Below the pieces are notes generated by a model that saw only the letters and a list, made by a program, of their open reading frames with translations, was not told the origin of the DNA and did not search any database. Of a stretch of DNA of 64,000 nt, positions 35,111-44,425 are shown piece after piece. The stretch's first letter is position 1. Every line of letters begins with the position of its first letter. Location: contig NZ_LT828648.1 of assembly GCF_900169565.1 (NCBI RefSeq), positions 1,366,876 to 1,430,875 on the forward strand. The letters are read 5' to 3'. Origin of the DNA: Nitrospira japonica. GTDB taxonomy: Bacteria; Nitrospirota; Nitrospiria; Nitrospirales; Nitrospiraceae. Position numbers and translations under genes: made by a program.

Positions 35111-35140
35111 TTGACAACCTGCAAAGCGGGACAGTAACAT
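35111..35140 (+). promoter_or_regulatory. Candidate promoter of the sulfate-assimilation operon
   Basis: TTGACA (35111-35116), 18 bases, then TAACAT (35135-35140). Transcription would start near 35147, inside the palindrome at 35146-35159. It lies 27 bases before the Rrf2 start codon. Confidence 0.55.
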
Positions 35141-35167: not shown

Positions 35168-35617
35168 ATGAAGGTATCTCTTCGATCTACATATGGAATT
35201 ATGGCGGCCGTTGATCTAGCCATGCATAGCGGGCTCCTCCCGGTTCAGGCGAAATCAATTGCCAAGCGCCAGGGAATACCCGCACGGTTTTTGGAACAGG
35301 TGCTACACGCCATGAAGAAAGCTGGCCTGGTGTCTAGTCAGCGCGGCGCTCAAGGTGGGTACGTCTTATCGAAGAAGCCGACCGAACTCTCCATTGCGGA
35401 AGTGCTGGAGGCGCTTGACGGCCCCTTCCTGACCGGAAATGGCTCGAACGGCCGTCCGCCATTTCAACGTATGACCAAATCGGAACTCCTGCTCGCAAAA
35501 GTGTGGGAACGAGTTCAGGAAGCGGAACGGCACGTGTTGGAAGCCATCACGATCGACGAGTTAGCCGGGAAGCAACGCGTGCTCGATCAACAACGCACCC
35601 TTATGTACCACATCTGA
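35168..35617 (+). CDS. Rrf2-family transcriptional regulator, likely sulfur-related
   Basis: 149 residues, one winged-helix domain. The Rrf2 pattern is clear: MKVSLRSTYGIMAAVDLAMHS, then SIAKRQGIPARFLEQVLHAMKKAGLVSSQRGAQGGYVLSK. The protein has no cysteines, so it does not hold an Fe-S cluster as IscR or NsrR do. It resembles CymR, which senses cysteine status by binding another protein. It heads the operon of sulfate-assimilation genes, and its stop codon TGA overlaps the GAGGT ribosome-binding site of the next gene. Confidence 0.88.
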   Translation: MKVSLRSTYGIMAAVDLAMHSGLLPVQAKSIAKRQGIPARFLEQVLHAMKKAGLVSSQRGAQGGYVLSKKPTELSIAEVLEALDGPFLTGNGSNGRPPFQRMTKSELLLAKVWERVQEAERHVLEAITIDELAGKQRVLDQQRTLMYHI

Positions 35618-35627
35618 GGTTATGATC

Positions 35628-38081
35628 ATGACTGCCAAGACCCTTACCTCCGGGCTCGTCCAGACGCATCCGATTCCGCCGGCGATCGCCGACGAAATCG
35701 AGACGTTTGAGCAGGAGTCCAAGCGCCTCCTGTCAGGAGAGATCGTCACCGACCTGTTCAAACCTTTCCGGTTGCAATATGGCATCTATGGCCAGCGGCA
35801 GCCCGGGGTCCAGATGATCCGCATCAAGATCCCTTTTGGGGGGCTGAACGCCAATCAATTGCGCCGGGTCGCCGAACTTGCCGAGCGGTATGCCACCGGA
35901 GTGGGGCACGTGACCACCAGGCAGGACATCCAACTCCATTTCGTGGAGCTGAAGGACGTGCCCGACGTGATGCGCGGTCTGGCGGAAGTAGGGTTGACCA
36001 CTCGGGAGGCCTGCGCCAATACCGTGCGAAATGTGACCGGCTGCCATCTCGCCGGAGTCTGCCAGGGCGAGGTGTTTGACATCACTCCCTATGCCAAGAC
36101 GGTGGCCTATCACCTATTGCGGAACCCGTTGAATCAAAGCCTGCCGCGCAAATTCAAGATCGCTTTTTCCGGTTGCAAGCATGACTGCGCGTTGACGCCG
36201 ATCCACGACATCGGTCTCTTGGCCGTGAAGCGGGAAGACGGCGTCATCGGATTCCGCATGGTCGCCGGCGGCGGACTTGGATCCGCGCCGCGTATCGCTC
36301 AAGTCCTCCGCGAGTTCACGCCGATGAACGAGCTGATTCCGAGCGTCGAAGCCGTCATCAAGGTGTTCGATACGCTCGGCAACCGGAAGAATCGGAACAA
36401 AGCCCGGATGAAATTCGTGATCGACAAGCTCGGATTCGCCGAGTTCAAGCGCCGATGGGAAGAGGCGTACGTCAGCATGGGGCATGCGCGCCCCGCGGAC
36501 GACACTCTCAGACTCCTCGAATATGAGGACAAACCGGCGCCCTTGATCATGCCCGAACCGGTGAAGTCGAACCGCGTCTCGGGAAACGGCCGTGTCAACG
36601 GCTCGACGGAAGAGACGCCGTTCGATATGTGGAAGCGGACGAACGTCGTGCGTCAGAAGCAGCCTGGTTACGTGGCCGCCGTCGTCAAATTGTTCATGGG
36701 TGACTTGACGACCGATCAAATGTTGGTCGTGTCCGATCTCGCGGAACGCTACTCGAACGGCAACATCCGCACCACGATCAATCAAAACATGATCATTCGC
36801 TGGATTCCCGAATCGGCGATCAGGGGCCTTTACGACGACTTGGCGTCGAAGGGACTCGCCGATCCCGGAGCCGAATTGGTGGAGGACATCATCGCCTGTC
36901 CCGGTACCGATACATGCGGCCTGGGCATTACGTCATCCAAAGGGCTGGCACGGGCCCTGGCGGAGGTGTTCCCGGCGGGTCGCGTGCCGGAAGATCTGAA
37001 AGACGTCAGCGTCAAAATCAGCGGATGCCACAATTCGTGCGCGCAGCATCACATCGCCACGATCGGTCTGCACGGAGTCGGCAAACGCATCGGAGAGCAC
37101 ACGGCGCCGTTCTACGAATTGCATCTTGGCGGCAAAGTGAACGGAACGGCCAAGATCGGACAGATGACGGTGAAACTTCCGGCCAAAGCCGTATCCGCGG
37201 CAATCACGCACCTGATCGACGTATATCGCCGGGACCGCAAGCCCAGTGAAGGGCTGCCGGCATTCATCGAGCGAGTCGGCAAGAACGCCCTCAAGGACGA
37301 GTTGATCCCCTATACCATCGTGCCGGCCTTCGACGACGATCCCACCTTCTATTACGATTGGGAGGGAGAGGAAGAGTTCGTCCTGGAAGATCTTGGGCCG
37401 GGCGAGTGCGCCGGCGGCGCGCTGGAGATGATCGAAAACGGCATTCTTGAAGCGGATCAAGAGCTGTATCAAGCCCGGCTCCTGATCGATAACCATCAAT
37501 ATTCGGTGTCTGTGAACAAATCGTACCGGGCGGTTTTGGCCGCCGCCAAGGCGCTCTTGGTGACGGAAGGCCTCGAGCCGTCGACCGATGCGGAAACGTT
37601 CGGCGAATTCGAACGCCGCATTGCGAGTCACGGTGTCGTACCGGGGCAGTACCGGGAGTTGGGCAAGAAGGTCGGAGATCTGGGGCCGAAGGACACGACG
37701 CTGGAATCGGCTCGGGAAAAAATGGCGTTTGCGAAGGGATTCGTCGATGCCTGCCGTGCGGCGACTGAGCAGATGGGGAAAGATCTGAAGTTGGCGCCGA
37801 CGGCCCCTGCGCCGACTCCGGCGAAGCCGGCTGCACCCGTGCCGACCGGCGCCCCACTGTATGATCTGCGCGGCGTCGCCTGTCCGCTCAATTATGTGAA
37901 GACCAAACTGAAGCTGGAGATGATGGATGCCGGCGAGAAACTGGAAGTCTGGCTGGACGCCGGGGAGCCGATCAAGAATGTGCCGATGAGCTTGAAGAAC
38001 GACGGACATCTTATCCATCTGCAGGAGGCGTTGGAGCCGGAGGCGGTGCATTTCAGGATCTTGGTCGAGAAAGTCGAGTAG
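35628..38081 (+). CDS. Siroheme nitrite/sulfite reductase with HEPN-like and TusA-like C-terminal domains
   Basis: 817 residues from the ATG at 35628 (GAGGT lies 7 bases upstream). Residues about 40-580 form two siroheme-reductase halves. Both carry full C-x5-C/C-x3-C cluster motifs: Cys139/145 with Cys183/187, and Cys424/430 with Cys467/471. In CysI and NirA only the second half keeps them. Residues about 606-713 look HEPN-like (helical, with YRAVLAAAKALL). An Ala/Pro linker leads to a TusA-like domain (about 740-815) with the sulfur-carrier CPLN motif, Cys752. In this operon it most likely reduces sulfite to sulfide. Confidence 0.88.
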   Translation: MTAKTLTSGLVQTHPIPPAIADEIETFEQESKRLLSGEIVTDLFKPFRLQYGIYGQRQPGVQMIRIKIPFGGLNANQLRRVAELAERYATGVGHVTTRQDIQLHFVELKDVPDVMRGLAEVGLTTREACANTVRNVTGCHLAGVCQGEVFDITPYAKTVAYHLLRNPLNQSLPRKFKIAFSGCKHDCALTPIHDIGLLAVKREDGVIGFRMVAGGGLGSAPRIAQVLREFTPMNELIPSVEAVIKVFDTLGNRKNRNKARMKFVIDKLGFAEFKRRWEEAYVSMGHARPADDTLRLLEYEDKPAPLIMPEPVKSNRVSGNGRVNGSTEETPFDMWKRTNVVRQKQPGYVAAVVKLFMGDLTTDQMLVVSDLAERYSNGNIRTTINQNMIIRWIPESAIRGLYDDLASKGLADPGAELVEDIIACPGTDTCGLGITSSKGLARALAEVFPAGRVPEDLKDVSVKISGCHNSCAQHHIATIGLHGVGKRIGEHTAPFYELHLGGKVNGTAKIGQMTVKLPAKAVSAAITHLIDVYRRDRKPSEGLPAFIERVGKNALKDELIPYTIVPAFDDDPTFYYDWEGEEEFVLEDLGPGECAGGALEMIENGILEADQELYQARLLIDNHQYSVSVNKSYRAVLAAAKALLVTEGLEPSTDAETFGEFERRIASHGVVPGQYRELGKKVGDLGPKDTTLESAREKMAFAKGFVDACRAATEQMGKDLKLAPTAPAPTPAKPAAPVPTGAPLYDLRGVACPLNYVKTKLKLEMMDAGEKLEVWLDAGEPIKNVPMSLKNDGHLIHLQEALEPEAVHFRILVEKVE

Positions 38082-38087
38082 TCCGGC

Positions 38088-38807
38088 ATGACGCAGGTAT
38101 CCCCTAACGATATGGAAGCCCTACAGGTGTGGAGCGACTCGTTCGCGTCGAAGCAGCCGCAGGAGGTGTTGGCTGCGGCGATCGAACGATATGCGCCGAA
38201 GATCGTCCTGGCCTGCAGCTTCGGCGCGGAAGACGTGGTGCTGGTGGATATGGTTCATCGCATCAATCCGTCGGTGCCGTTGTTTTATCTCGACACGGAC
38301 TTCCTGTTTCCCGAGACCCATGCAACCAGGGATCGGATCGCGGAACGGTACAACTTGAAGCCGGCACAAATGCTCCAAGTCAAGTCGCTGTTGACGCCCG
38401 CGGATCAGACGGCGCGGCACGGGGAAGCCTTATGGGCCAAGGATCCCGATCAATGCTGCAAGATTCGGAAAGTGGAACCCTTGAACAGAATATTGAAGAC
38501 CTATGACGCCTGGATCACCGGCATCCGGCGGGAGCAGTCTCCAACGCGCGCCAACGCCAAGATGATTGAATGGGACAACATTTTCGGGCTGGTCAAAGTC
38601 AATCCATTGGCGGCGTGGACGTGGGCGGACGTCTGGACCTATATCAAGATCTACGAAGTGCCGTACAACGAATTGCATGATCGCAACTATCCCAGCATCG
38701 GCTGCACGCACTGTACGAAACCGGTGATGCCCGGGGAAGACCCTCGCTCCGGCCGGTGGCAGGGGCGTGAGAAAACGGAATGCGGACTCCATAAGAAGGC
38801 TTCTTGA
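38088..38807 (+). CDS. cysH: Assimilatory adenylyl-sulfate (APS) reductase
   Basis: 239 residues. The PP-loop-like motif SFGAEDVVL lies near residue 45. The [4Fe-4S] ligands of APS-type enzymes are present: Cys123-Cys124 and Cys206-x2-Cys209. The catalytic Cys232 is in KTECGLH near the C-terminus. These iron-sulfur cysteines mark APS rather than PAPS reductases. It makes sulfite, the substrate of the hemoprotein encoded 7 bases upstream. Its stop overlaps the next start. Confidence 0.95.
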   Translation: MTQVSPNDMEALQVWSDSFASKQPQEVLAAAIERYAPKIVLACSFGAEDVVLVDMVHRINPSVPLFYLDTDFLFPETHATRDRIAERYNLKPAQMLQVKSLLTPADQTARHGEALWAKDPDQCCKIRKVEPLNRILKTYDAWITGIRREQSPTRANAKMIEWDNIFGLVKVNPLAAWTWADVWTYIKIYEVPYNELHDRNYPSIGCTHCTKPVMPGEDPRSGRWQGREKTECGLHKKAS

Positions 38808-39859
38808 TGTCGATGCATGAATTCATTGCGAAAATCGCCAAAGGTCAGAAAGCCTCGAAGGACCTCACCTGGGACGAGGCCAAGCGTGCCATGAAATCGC
38901 TGATCGAGGGCCAGGCGACTCCCGCTCAGATCGGGGCGTTCCTGGTCGCGATGCGGGTGAAAATGGAATCGGTCACCGAACTGGCGGCGTTTACTGCGGC
39001 TGCTCGCTCCTACGTGGCTCCCGTTCCGACACCGCAAGACATCAATGTCGTGGACCTGCCCAGTTATGCCGGCAAACAGGATACCTTTCATGCGCTGGCC
39101 GGGGCGGCGATCGTCGCGGCGGCAGCCGGGGCGGCCGTTCTCATGCATGGATACGACGGAATTCCGGGCCGCCCGGGTCAAGCCGGAGTTCTCGAGGCGT
39201 TGGGCGTACCGATCGATCTGGATCCCAAGGCGGCCGGAGAGGCCGTGACGAAACAAGGATTTGCCTACCTGGACATCGGGCTCTACCATCCTCCACTGTA
39301 TCGATTTCTTGAACTGCGCCGGGAACTCGGCGTGCGAAGCGTCTTTCATCCGGTTGCGCGATTGCTCAACCCGGCCCGCAGCCGTTCTCAAGTGATCGGA
39401 TTGACCCACCCGCCGTATTTTGAGAAGACGGCGGAGGCGCTTCGGATGTTGGGAGCGCCGAGAGCGCTCGTGATTCGCGGTGTTGAAGGAGATCCGGAGC
39501 TGTCGATCGCGATGGTGACCAAGGTGTTGGAATTGCGTGACGACCGGATCACTCCCCTGACCCTGGCGCCGAAGGACGTGGGATTGAATCTCGGAACATC
39601 TCGCGATATGGGCGGGTTCCCGCCAGAGCAACGGGACAAGGAGGCGCTGCTTCTGCGCCGAGTCCTGCAGAATCAGGTGCAGGGAGGCGCTCGCGATTGG
39701 GTACTCTACAACGCGGCGATGTTGCTCTATGCCGCAGGAAAAGAATCCTCGCTGGCCGCGTGTATACCGCGGGCCAAGCGGGCTCTTGAAGACGGGGCCG
39801 CGGCGCGAAAGCTCGAAGCACTCGGCCGGCAGCCGATCGCCGCGGCTTCGGCCGGCTGA
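38807..39859 (+). CDS. TrpD2-like glycosyltransferase-family protein
   Basis: 350 residues from the ATG at 38807, which overlaps the cysH stop. It has the fold pattern of anthranilate phosphoribosyltransferase-like proteins (an N-terminal helical bundle, DLTWDEAKRAMKSLIEGQATPAQIGAFLVAMRVK, then an alpha/beta domain), but the catalytic GTGGD motif is replaced. It therefore fits the TrpD2/YbiB group, some of which bind nucleic acids and lack the TrpD activity. Its place inside the sulfur operon is unexplained. Confidence 0.75.
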   Translation: MSMHEFIAKIAKGQKASKDLTWDEAKRAMKSLIEGQATPAQIGAFLVAMRVKMESVTELAAFTAAARSYVAPVPTPQDINVVDLPSYAGKQDTFHALAGAAIVAAAAGAAVLMHGYDGIPGRPGQAGVLEALGVPIDLDPKAAGEAVTKQGFAYLDIGLYHPPLYRFLELRRELGVRSVFHPVARLLNPARSRSQVIGLTHPPYFEKTAEALRMLGAPRALVIRGVEGDPELSIAMVTKVLELRDDRITPLTLAPKDVGLNLGTSRDMGGFPPEQRDKEALLLRRVLQNQVQGGARDWVLYNAAMLLYAAGKESSLAACIPRAKRALEDGAAARKLEALGRQPIAAASAG

Positions 39860-39885: not shown

Positions 39886-40683
39886 GTGAAACATTTGCGT
39901 CAGCTTGAAGACCAAAGCGTCTATATTCTTCGAGAAGCCTACAAGCATTTCGACAACCTCGCCATGCTCTGGTCGATGGGGAAGGACTCGACTGTCCTGT
40001 TATGGCTGGCGCGCAAGGCGTTCTTCGGTCATGTTCCGTTTCCGCTCCTGCACGTGGACACCAGCTACAAGATTCCCGCCATGATCGAGTACCGCGATCG
40101 ATTGGCGCGCGAATGGCATCTCAACCTCGTCGTCGGACAGAATAAAGAAGCACTTGCCGCCGGTATGAATCACACCTTGGGACGCGTGACCTGCTGCACG
40201 GCGCTCAAGACGAACGGCCTGAAACAGCTTCTTGAGCAAAAGGGCTACACCGGCGTGATCCTCGGCGTTCGGGCGGACGAAGAGGGAACCAGGGCGAAGG
40301 AACGATACTTCTCGCCGCGGGACAAGCATGGGGACTGGGATTTTCGGGATCAGCCGCCCGAGCTATGGGATCAGTTCAAGACGACCTTTCCGCCGGGCAC
40401 CCACATCCGTATTCACCCGCTGTTGGATTGGACGGAGATCAACATCTGGGAGTACATCAAACTGGAGAATATTCCGTTCATCGACCTGTACCTCGACAAG
40501 GGCGACGGCACCCGCTATCGGAGCCTCGGATGCGCCCCCTGCACGATGCCGATCAAATCGACCGCCAAGAACGTGGACGACATCATCGAGGAATTGCGCC
40601 ATACGACCGTCGCGGAGCGGTCAGGTCGCGCGCAGGATGAGGGACGCGGAATGGAATTGCTCCGCAAAGACGGATACATGTGA
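39886..40683 (+). CDS. cysD: Sulfate adenylyltransferase subunit 2
   Basis: 265 residues, GTG start. The PP-loop SMGKDST lies near residue 31-37, followed by [16 protein letters not shown] and the [19 protein letters not shown] motif that CysD proteins share. It adenylates sulfate to APS together with the CysN GTPase encoded 31 bases downstream. The APS made here feeds the reductase encoded upstream. Confidence 0.96.
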
Positions 40684-40714
40684 TGCCGCCGCGCCGAGAG
40701 GAGTGTCCCGCACT

Positions 40715-42559
40715 ATGACGTCCCATTCATCCAAACCGTCCGAACATCTCAACATCGTCATCGTCGGTCACGTCGATCACGGGAAGTCGACGTTGCTCGG
40801 CCGTCTCTATGCGGATACGGGATCCCTCCCGGACGGTAAGCTGGAAAAGGTGCAGGCGATTTGCCGCCAGCAAGGCAAGGAGTTCGAGTACGCATTTCTG
40901 TTCGATGCCTTTCTCGAGGAGCAGGAGCAGGGCATCACGATCGATACGGCCCGCACGTTTTTCATCTGGCAGGGCCGCCAGTACATCATCATCGATGCGC
41001 CCGGACACAAGGAATTTCTGAAGAACATGATTTCAGGGGCCGCCCGGGCGGAAGCCGCCCTGCTCCTGATCGACGCACTCGAAGGCGTGAAGGAACAGTC
41101 CAAAAAACACGGCTATCTGCTCTCGCTCCTGGGAGTGCGCCAGTTTGCGGTGGTGGTCAACAAAATGGACCTTGTCGGTTACCGTCAGGATGTCTTCGAC
41201 GGGATCGAAAAGGAATATCGGGAATTTCTGAGCCAGTTCGGCGCCGTGCCGGAACGTGTCATCCCGGTGAGCGCGAAAATGGGTGATAACATCGCCAAGC
41301 GCGGCTCGGTCATGGCGTGGTACGACGGACCCACCGTTCTGGATGCGCTGCATCTGTTCAAAAAAGAGACGGCCAGATCGGAACAGCCGCTTCGGTTTCC
41401 CATCCAGGACGTCTACAAGTTCGATGCGCGGCGGATCATCACCGGCCGCATCGCGGCTGGTCGGCTGAAGGTCGGAGATCACCTGGTGTTTTCCCCTTCG
41501 AACAAACGCGCCAATATCCGATCCGTTGAGGCGTTCAATATCGAGCCGCCGCCGACCGGCGCGGAAGCCGGTCAGTCGGTCGGCATCACGCTCGACGAAC
41601 AGATTTTCATCGAGCGCGGTGAGATTGCGACCCATCAGTCGCAGTTGCCGCTGGTCTCGACGGCGTTTCGCGCCAACCTGTTCTGGCTGGGGCGGCGCCC
41701 CCTGGAGAAAGGCCGCAAGTATCTCCTGCGCGTCGCGACGAACGAGGTGGATTGCGAGATTGCCGTGATTCACAAGATCATCGACACCATGGATTTGGCG
41801 CAGCAGCAGGGGAGTACGTCGGTCGCGAGAAATCAGGTGGCGGAATTGACGGTGCGGACGAAGGCTCCGGTCGCGTTCGACCTGTCATCCTCCTTTGAAG
41901 CGACCGGCCGGTTTGTCTTGGTCGACGAATATGACATCGCGGGCGGCGGGATCGTCACGGAAGTGATCCACGACGATCAGGAATTCCTACGTGAGGAAGC
42001 CCGGCGACGGGATTTTGCGTGGGTCAAAGGGGAAGTCGGTATCGAAGAGCGGGCGCAACAATACGGCCACCGGGCGGCGATCGTCCTGGTTACCGGGGGC
42101 CGGCATACCGGGAAGTCCTTTCTCGCCAAGAAACTGGAGGCCCGGCTCGTGGCCGACGGTCGACATGCCTATCTGCTCGATGGGGAAAATCTCCGGCGGG
42201 GACTCGATGCGGACCTTTCGGAGCACGAGCGGGGGCAGACGGCAGAGATGGGTCGCCGGTACGGAGAAGTGGCGCGGCTCCTCGTCGACACGGGGTTGAT
42301 CGTGGTGTCCACGACGAACCCGTTCGGGATGGGATATGCCGAAGCCGCGCAGGCGATCAGGACGTTGGTGCATCCGGCGCCGGTCATTGCCGTGCATATG
42401 AGCAAGCTGCCCGAAGAGGCACCTGCCGGTACGGATCTCATCTTCACGGGCCCCGCGGATTTTGACGCGGCGACTCGCCGGATCATCGAGGAGTTGAAAC
42501 GCCGGGGCGTCCTGGCGCACGCTATTGGCGCCAAACCGACGTTTCAATATTCGATCTGA
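40715..42559 (+). CDS. cysNC: Sulfate adenylyltransferase subunit 1 fused to an altered APS-kinase domain
   Basis: 614 residues from the ATG at 40715. Residues 1-430 are the EF-Tu-like CysN GTPase, with GHVDHGKST at 18-26, DAPGHKEF and NKMDLV. The C-terminal part (about 450-614) resembles APS kinase, with a P-loop GGRHTGKS (461-468), [31 protein letters not shown], but without the usual RxxN after the Arg or the DPKGLYKKA lid. The kinase may be weak, altered or regulatory. An open frame extends upstream only because cysD lies in another frame. Confidence 0.93.
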
Positions 42560-42726: not shown

Positions 42727-43647
42727 ATGGCTCCCGACAAAGATCTGAAGACGATTCTTGGTAAGCTTCGGTACTCCGACGACGCCAAGGTCGTGCAGCA
42801 GATCACCGAGCAGATGCAACAGGTGCAAGCCAGAATGACGGGCATCAAGCATAAGCTCGTCGTCATGAGCGGCAAGGGCGGCGTGGGCAAAAGCATGACC
42901 ACGGTGAATCTGGCCCTGGCCTTAGCGCGGCAGCACAGCCGTGTCGGCCTACTCGATGTGGATTTGAACGGCCCCTGCGTTCCTCGGATGCTTGGCCTTC
43001 ATGGCCGGTCGTTGACCATGACCCCGGAAGGAGCGCTGCCGCCGGTCGGTCCGTTGAATATCAAAGTCGCCTCCATGGATTTTTTTCTGGGAGCCGCCTC
43101 TCCGGTCAGATGGAAAGGGCCGATGGATGTCAGTCCAGTCTGGCTGGGCCTCATGGAAATGAACGTCATCCGGGAATTCCTGGCCGACGTCGTCTGGGGC
43201 GAGTTGGACTATCTGCTTGCGGATCTCCCGCCCGGTGCCGCCGCAGACAAACCGCCTGTCATCGCGGGCTTCATTCCCGATCTGGCCGGCGCCATCGTCG
43301 TAACGACCCCTTCCGAGGTTGCCTCGGATGTCGTCCAGAAATCCGTCACCTATGCGCGTGACATGGGGATCAAAGTGCTGGGCATCGTCGAAAACATGAG
43401 CGAATACCGCTGCCCGTCCTGCGGTGAACAGAACGAATTATTCGAGGGCAATACCGAAGCCATGTGCGAAGTGTTGGATCTCCCCCTTCTCGGCCGTATC
43501 CCCTTTGACCGGAAGCTTGCCCGCACCTTCGACAAGGGCGAACCATTGCTGGATGAGACGTATCCGACCATCCAGCGTTACCAGGAAATCGCCGGACGTA
43601 TTCGAACGCTGCTGGATTATAAGAAGGTCCTGGCCGAAAAACTGTGA
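42727..43647 (+). CDS. Mrp/NBP35-family ATP-binding Fe-S carrier
   Basis: 306 residues. A deviant Walker A SGKGGVGKSMTT lies near 49-60, followed by the DVDLNGP switch, DLPPG, and CPSC near the C-terminus (YRCPSCG), a pair typical of the Fe-S binding site of Mrp proteins. Such proteins carry [4Fe-4S] clusters to apoenzymes. The gene follows the sulfur operon after 167 bases, so a role in maturing nearby Fe-S enzymes is possible but not shown. A zinc-ribbon/PCP_red gene follows after 22 bases. Confidence 0.9.
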   Translation: MAPDKDLKTILGKLRYSDDAKVVQQITEQMQQVQARMTGIKHKLVVMSGKGGVGKSMTTVNLALALARQHSRVGLLDVDLNGPCVPRMLGLHGRSLTMTPEGALPPVGPLNIKVASMDFFLGAASPVRWKGPMDVSPVWLGLMEMNVIREFLADVVWGELDYLLADLPPGAAADKPPVIAGFIPDLAGAIVVTTPSEVASDVVQKSVTYARDMGIKVLGIVENMSEYRCPSCGEQNELFEGNTEAMCEVLDLPLLGRIPFDRKLARTFDKGEPLLDETYPTIQRYQEIAGRIRTLLDYKKVLAEKL

Positions 43648-43669
43648 CGCTCATCCAAGAGGAGATGCC

Positions 43670-44425
43670 ATGAAATTCGTGTGCCTCAATTGCGAAACCT
43701 ACATGAACTTCGAAAAGGTCGAAAAGCCCGGAGAAGGGTCTCTCGGGGTGTTTTTCGGCTGCCCGTCCTGCGGGGCAAAATTTTCGATGGTCACCAATCC
43801 GGGCGAAACGCAAATGGTCAGTTCGCTGGGCGTGAAGTTGGGCGGGAGGACCGTGGCGGCCGAGCCATTCGAGATGACGAGGGGGACATTGAAGGATGAA
43901 GCGCTGGCCGGGTCAGGCCAGATGGCGGCGTATTTAAATGAGAAGATTCAGGGCGGCCAACCCGCCTCCGCCGCTCCCGCGGCGACACCCAAGAGTGGCG
44001 ACAAGGCCGGAAGCAGCGGCTGCCCCTTTTCCGCGATGGTGGCCGAGATGGGACTCACCTCTTCCGGCAAACCCGCCAACGGCGCGCCTGCGGCGTCGGA
44101 GTTCACCTGGACGGCTGATGCCAAGGAAAAACTCGACCGGCTGCCTGTTTTCGTGAAGCCGATGGTTCAGAGCAGCGTGGAAGCCTATGCCAGAAAGCAA
44201 GGCTATACGACCATTACGCTGCAAGTGATGGATGACTCCAAGAACGACTCTCCCAACGGCATCGCGTGGACTCGCGAAGCGGAGCAACGACTCGACAATA
44301 TTCCCGACTTTATCCGTCCGATGGCCCGCAAGGAAATCGAACGGCTGGCCAAAGAGCGCGGCGTCCCTACAATCACGGCGCAAGTGATGGACGACGCTAA
44401 AGACAAGTTCATGAAATTCATGTAG
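43670..44425 (+). CDS. Zinc-ribbon protein with two PCP_red domains
   Basis: 251 residues from the ATG at 43670 (AGAGGAG precedes it). An N-terminal zinc ribbon has CLNC (residues 5-8) and CPSC (about 32-35). A linker leads to two PCP_red domains (about 143-187 and 203-248), each with WT-x-(D/E)A, a Leu near PxF(I/V)(R/K)P, and a repeated ITAQVMDD-type end. PCP_red is otherwise known from the C-terminus of the BchB subunit of protochlorophyllide reductase, but no photosynthesis genes are in this window. It is coupled to Mrp by 22 bases, suggesting an Fe-S related role. Confidence 0.75.
   Translation: MKFVCLNCETYMNFEKVEKPGEGSLGVFFGCPSCGAKFSMVTNPGETQMVSSLGVKLGGRTVAAEPFEMTRGTLKDEALAGSGQMAAYLNEKIQGGQPASAAPAATPKSGDKAGSSGCPFSAMVAEMGLTSSGKPANGAPAASEFTWTADAKEKLDRLPVFVKPMVQSSVEAYARKQGYTTITLQVMDDSKNDSPNGIAWTREAEQRLDNIPDFIRPMARKEIERLAKERGVPTITAQVMDDAKDKFMKFM

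Follow-up and report, generated by a model that had tools for sequence, protein, structure and literature searches.

A sulfate-assimilation operon and its sulfite reductase-HEPN-TusA fusion

The window, a 64,000-nucleotide stretch of the Nitrospira japonica genome (contig NZ_LT828648.1), was found to carry a gene (35628..38081, +) for a sulfite reductase fused to HEPN and TusA-like domains in a single chain of 817 aa, as assigned by Pfam profiles and an AlphaFold2 model. An alternative in-frame ATG at 35622, 6 bases upstream, would give a product of 819 aa. The gene is part of a sulfate-assimilation operon. An Rrf2-family regulator gene of CymR/IscR-like type (35168..35617, +; Rrf2 110 bits) precedes the reductase gene by 4-10 bases; it scored 98 bits with the CymR model, which is below the cut-off of that model, and an Rrf2-family gene was kept in 25 of 41 reductase loci. 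Upstream of the regulator gene, a sigma-70-like sequence, TTGACA-18-TAACAT (35111..35140, +; 10/12 matches), is a candidate operon promoter, although a weak one, as four such sites were detected in the region compared to a chance mean of 3.0. Within 6 bases of the end of the reductase gene starts cysH of the APS-reductase type (CC...CxxC; 38088..38807, +), the source of sulfite, followed by a TrpD2/YbiB-like glycosyltransferase-family gene (38804..39859, +), cysD (39886..40683, +) and a cysN-APS kinase fusion (cysNC, 40679..42559, +, start approximate). The TrpD2/YbiB-like gene was a neighbour in 17 of the 41 loci and was retained even at loci with aprAB and sat (L141, L142, L162 and others). 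The sulfate operon is followed by an Mrp/ApbC-type Fe-S carrier gene and the gene next to it (together 42727-44425, the second listed at 43424-44425 with an approximate start), which are conserved across several Nitrospira loci.

Profile searches of the genome, which is a single contig of 4.08 Mb and 99.96% complete, identified the reductase of the window as the only NIR_SIR protein of N. japonica. CysJ was absent from this complete genome (19 bits with a model that has a cut-off of 668), as were DsrC and DsrAB. The reductase family was found across the Nitrospirales and related Nitrospirota. In distant Nitrospirota, the reductase gene is located beside aprA, aprB, sat and a TauE sulfite exporter gene instead of cysH, cysD and cysN. 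This exchange of the sulfite-making enzymes, while the reductase stays, is strong evidence for a function as sulfite reductase. DsrA was over cut-off in 83 of 198 genomes, and by manual comparison none of these 83 carried the reductase family.

The reductase core is composed of two NIR_SIR_ferr/NIR_SIR halves on one chain, with two stretches matched by each of the Pfam models NIR_SIR (192 bits) and NIR_SIR_ferr (129 bits). The first half (35787..36464, +; NIR_SIR_ferr at residues 54-121 and NIR_SIR at 130-279) supplies R98, R134, K175 and K177, and the second (36636..37307, +) supplies the cluster ligands Cys424, Cys430, Cys467 and Cys471. The AlphaFold2 model, built from 52 related sequences with a mean pLDDT of 86.8, had Mycobacterium tuberculosis NirA (1zj8) as the best fold match of its reductase part (Z 39.6 over 476 residues, 29% identity). 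Thus, the siroheme reductase core proposed in a preliminary description of this DNA was recovered by both approaches, and so were the two domains that it had placed after the core. The TusA-like domain (37851..38078, +), with Cys752 in a CPLN motif, was matched by Pfam at residues 746-811 (52 bits, cut-off 28.6) and by fold to TusA/TsuB over residues 738-816 (Z 12-14). The HEPN-like segment (37419..37778, +), which had been considered the least certain assignment, proved correct as a fold, because residues 596-717 of the model matched the HEPN protein 2hsb with a Z of 16.3 (119 residues aligned, 2.6 A). The Pfam model PF05168 was scored at 24.6 bits against a cut-off of 22 for residues 607-653, and under the cut-off in some other family members. 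No R-x4-6-H RNase motif was conserved in this domain: any such string was present in only 23 of 94 family members, and the columns of the string in the window protein itself were not conserved among the 94. An RNase function was therefore rejected, and the HEPN domain is probably not an RNase.

The catalytic centre and the cysteines of the first half

Residue conservation was counted over 94 non-redundant family members. The four cluster cysteines of the second half were invariant (94/94), as were R98, R134, K175 and K177 of the first half, which align with the sulfite sites of CysI and DsrA, the lysines forming a K-x-K. The sulfite site of known sulfite reductases is made up of two arginines and two lysines (PMC10229431), and the PRKFK motif of the window reductase together with R98 and R134 matches these four residues. 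By sequence, the enzyme is predicted to have one classical catalytic site, formed by the second-half cluster and the first-half R98, R134, K175 and K177.

The preliminary description had reported C-x5-C and C-x3-C motifs in both halves and had suggested that the chain carries two siroheme-Fe4S4 centres. The motifs were confirmed at Cys139/145/183/187 and Cys424/430/467/471 with full spacing in both halves, and at the positions used by DsrA and DsrB. The first-half set (36042..36188, +), a predicted extra [4Fe-4S] cluster or relic, was kept in 94, 91, 94 and 91 of the 94 members at the respective positions. All four cysteines were found in 91 members, down to about 40% identity, and with the second-half set at 94/94 the two-set pattern is not due to chance. 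A fused, DsrAB-like chain with a second siroheme, either structural or catalytic, would account for this spacing and would fit the view of assimilatory enzymes as descendants of a two-centre ancestor that have lost one centre (PMC10229431). By contrast, the residues that such a centre would need were missing. Since the fold is pseudo-two-fold, a siroheme on the first-half cluster would require cations from the second half, where the mirror residues are instead N/Q (for R98), E (R134), G/D (K175) and S/D (K177). DsrB, which holds the structural siroheme of DsrA, keeps a TTRN motif and an arginine at -6 from the cluster cysteine, and from pseudo-symmetry we infer that these arginines touch that siroheme; the Nitrospirota family is without both. 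The missing mirror cations and DsrB-type arginines make a second catalytic siroheme on the window reductase very unlikely and a structural siroheme at the first-half cluster unlikely. The two-siroheme proposal was thus rejected as the favoured explanation, and in either form it is considered improbable.

The first-half set itself also argued against a second siroheme centre. Variation of these cysteines among homologues, which the preliminary description had named as evidence against its proposal, was observed in the wider family: a clade of Nitrospirota (f9, L136-138) has Ser145 and His187 in place of two of the cysteines, and the set is reduced to two of four in Thermus and to none in Bacteroidota and Proteobacteria. 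The earlier statement that CysI and NirA keep the cysteines in one half only was too strong, as three of the four first-half cysteines are present in NirA of Nitrospira (L170) and of Haloferax (L203). In a tree of 39 sequences, the f9 clade was nested among Nitrospirota sequences with all four cysteines. The order of the Thermus, Bacteroidota, Proteobacteria and Nitrospirota clades was not resolved in this tree, in which some branches are long, and so it cannot distinguish whether the set is ancestral or was regained. The erosion outside the family indicates that the first-half cysteines are dispensable for sulfite reduction, yet they are maintained in the Nitrospirota. Most likely, they hold a lone, siroheme-free [4Fe-4S] cluster (our first guess) or are a relic (our second).

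A further pair of residues linked the reductase to M. tuberculosis NirA. Tyr54 (35787..35789, +) and Cys129 (36012..36014, +) were each invariant (94/94) and correspond in the alignment to positions 80 and 172 of the 1zj8 sequence, which, with a common offset of 11, we take to be Tyr69 and Cys161 of NirA. A Cys-Tyr bond in this enzyme is named in the title of a paper cited in PMC8092218, and Tyr54 and Cys129, judged by the alignment, probably form a similar crosslink. Proteins of 1073-1097 aa are encoded by other Nitrospirota (L167, L168, L169 and L172); in L168, a NirB-like flavoprotein part (Pyr_redox_2, Rubredoxin_C and BFD [2Fe-2S]) is joined to a siroheme reductase with both halves complete, in which C129 is kept and a Cys stands in place of Tyr54.

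The GxGEC arm, TusA and candidate sulfur acceptors

Between the reductase and HEPN domains, we identified a GPGECAG motif (residues 590-596; 37395..37415, +) with an invariant cysteine, Cys594. G590, G592, E593, C594 and G596 were each found in 94 of 94 members, and despite this full conservation the pLDDT was below 50 at residues 590-592 and 594-597. The related protein of Thermus oshimai ends with GRGECAV, such that GxGEC is its C-terminal tail, and in the Bacteroidota proteins GVGECAG or EVGECAG precedes a HEPN-like region, with TusA absent. A conserved cysteine on what appears to be a mobile tail recalls, by analogy, DsrC.

TusA was fused to the reductase in 88 of the 94 members, all 88 of which have the CPxN motif. 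In five loci (L152-L156) TusA is instead encoded by a separate gene directly downstream of the reductase gene, in one (L166) it is missing, and in another (L139) the TusA domain of the reductase is doubled. At this last locus, DsrE/DsrE/DsrH-like genes (L139:1477-3462, -) lie between the two-TusA reductase gene and sat, in a genome without a DsrA over cut-off. The split and duplicated TusA and the DsrE/DsrH neighbours support a physical link between the reductase and its carrier, as well as a traffic in persulfide. Thus, the earlier suggestion that sulfide or persulfide is handed to a carrier on the same chain is plausible as a reading. The reaction can do without such a hand-off, as the Bacteroidota and Thermus members are without a fused TusA and L166 has lost it.

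No genes known to accept sulfur from TusA were detected beside the reductase in the N. japonica genome. A TusA protein of 80 aa that stands alone and shares about 61% identity with the fused domain is encoded elsewhere (L182:6177-6419, -; G000, about 3,450,700) near cobA-hemD and hemA genes of the siroheme route. A separate cluster (L181:6037-11020, -) encodes CysK, threonine synthase (ThrC), a MoaD/SAMP-like carrier, a NIL-like protein, MoeB without rhodanese and a JAB protease, and is a candidate CysO-type cysteine route. By analogy, the stand-alone TusA and this cluster are possible acceptors of the reductase sulfur, a role that has been predicted for operons similar to the latter (PMC1779556). 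Co-occurrence with JAB/ThiS was considered as support for a CysO-type acceptor and set aside as uninformative: JAB was present in 187 of 198 genomes, and co-occurrence of a gene near-universal in the phylum with the reductase tells nothing. In one genome (G202), a JAB gene is about 10 kb from the reductase gene, with no ThiS/E1 evident alongside by eye. A plasmid search with the HEPN-TusA part returned ordinary TusA only.

Proposed function, alternatives and relation to known systems

Taken together, these results are best explained by an assimilatory sulfite reductase with one siroheme-[4Fe-4S] centre, an extra first-half cluster or its relic, and a sulfur carrier in cis, a reading to which we assign a probability of roughly 0.6. 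By this model, CysD and CysN(C) would turn sulfate into APS, CysH would make sulfite from APS, and the window enzyme would serve as the sulfite reductase of N. japonica assimilation and carry out the six-electron reduction. The electrons would probably come from ferredoxin, as no CysJ is present. Sulfite would be bound by R98, R134, K175 and K177 at the single catalytic siroheme-[4Fe-4S], with its cluster on Cys424/430/467/471. The first-half cysteines would hold a plain [4Fe-4S] cluster, for electron transfer or structure, or be the fading relic of an ancestral two-centre dimer. The reduced sulfur would leave as a persulfide on Cys752 of the TusA domain, Cys594 on the flexible GxGEC arm being perhaps an intermediate on the way, and the HEPN domain would have a non-catalytic role, in docking or as a hinge. 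A bolder version is put forward only tentatively and with some doubt: Cys594 would enter the siroheme pocket, accept the sulfur in the manner of DsrC, which acts in trans, and pass it to TusA on the same chain, with no release of free sulfide, and the first-half [4Fe-4S], inherited from a two-centre ancestor, would be the point of electron entry.

The alternative that we take most seriously, although it is rated as no better than possible, is that the first-half cysteines are relic or structural (without cofactor, in a disulfide or on zinc), that TusA and HEPN serve only for docking, and that free sulfide goes to cysteine synthase. This is consistent with the variation of the first-half cysteines in relatives whose enzyme is otherwise retained, with the lack of a fused TusA in Bacteroidota, Thermus and L166, and with the presence of a cysK gene (L181). 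By contrast, relic cysteines are hard to reconcile with a set complete in 91 of 94 members, and a mere docking role with a CPxN that is invariant wherever TusA is present and a split TusA that stays adjacent. We give very little weight to the oxidative direction, in which persulfide sulfur from TusA would be converted to sulfite as by reverse DsrAB. Although TusA and the DsrE/DsrH, AprAB and Sat neighbours resemble a sulfur-oxidation set (PMC7596348), the partners in Nitrospira are the assimilatory CysH, CysD and CysNC behind an Rrf2 regulator, N. japonica has neither DsrC nor DsrAB, and assimilation would be left without a sulfite reductase, the window gene encoding the sole NIR_SIR protein. 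It is likewise highly improbable that the enzyme chiefly reduces nitrite and serves nitrogen assimilation. Its NirA-type similarity (the best NCBIfam score was to the NirA family, at 288 bits and below the cut-off of 523, and the best fold match was M. tuberculosis NirA) and the lack of another NIR_SIR gene in the genome would agree with such a function. However, both lysines found in sulfite reductases are present in PRKFK, compared to PRKFN in Nitrospira NirA and PRKWN in tobacco root NiR, the operon is one of sulfate assimilation, and there are Nitrospira that carry a separate NirA besides the reductase (L170).

Nitrospira are central nitrifiers, and the window gene looks like their sulfite reductase, the sole one in the N. 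japonica genome. If the carrier in cis is real, sulfate assimilation would end in a protected persulfide relay and not in diffusing sulfide, which would be the assimilatory equivalent of DsrAB-DsrC. With the first-half cysteines, the accepted view that one of two ancestral centres was lost from assimilatory enzymes can be tested on a living intermediate, by asking whether a cluster is still present where siroheme is gone. The enzyme thus has two testable features, the predicted lone cluster of the first half and the proposed relay through Cys594 and TusA.

Among known systems, the M. tuberculosis NirA/SirA-type ferredoxin sulfite reductase (1zj8) is similar in fold, in its Tyr69/Cys161 pair and in having one siroheme-Fe4S4, and differs in lacking the first-half cysteine set, the GxGEC arm, HEPN and TusA. 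E. coli CysI (1aop) and plant Sir share the two-half fold, the second-half cluster and the R/R/K/K site; CysI, by contrast, uses the flavoprotein CysJ, absent in N. japonica, and is without the first-half set and C-terminal domains. DsrAB is similar in having cluster cysteines in both halves and, with DsrC, passes sulfur to a carrier cysteine (PMC10229431), whereas the window reductase is a single chain with no ferredoxin insertion, a mirror site without the cations of DsrB, and no DsrC. Sulfite reductases of the same lineage, with GxGEC, C129 and Y54, occur in Bacteroidota (L200-202), where the HEPN-like C-terminus is also shared, and in Thermus oshimai (L196), where the protein stops at the GxGEC tail; both are without TusA and have none and two, respectively, of the four first-half cysteines. 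Operons of SirA(TusA), sulfite reductase, ThiS, E1 and JAB and ThiS-fused sulfite reductases have been predicted, with the SirA(TusA) genes adjoining sulfite reductases proposed to serve sulfur transfer (PMC1779556), and a rhodanese-fused halobacterial NirA is on record (PMC11237513); these share with the window reductase the linking of a sulfite or nitrite reductase to a small sulfur carrier, on one chain or through the operon. The carrier in these fusions is ThiS or rhodanese, compared to TusA with HEPN here, and a TusA and HEPN fusion of sulfite reductase was not found in the literature searched. Assimilatory sulfite reductases, including E. coli CysIJ, have been reported to produce zero-valent sulfur directly (PMC13188885). 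Thus, the core is that of a known NirA/CysI-type assimilatory sulfite reductase, while the HEPN-TusA form, widespread in Nitrospirota, is apparently new, as are the observations of the invariant GxGEC with Cys594, the Tyr54/Cys129 pair and the clades with split or doubled TusA.
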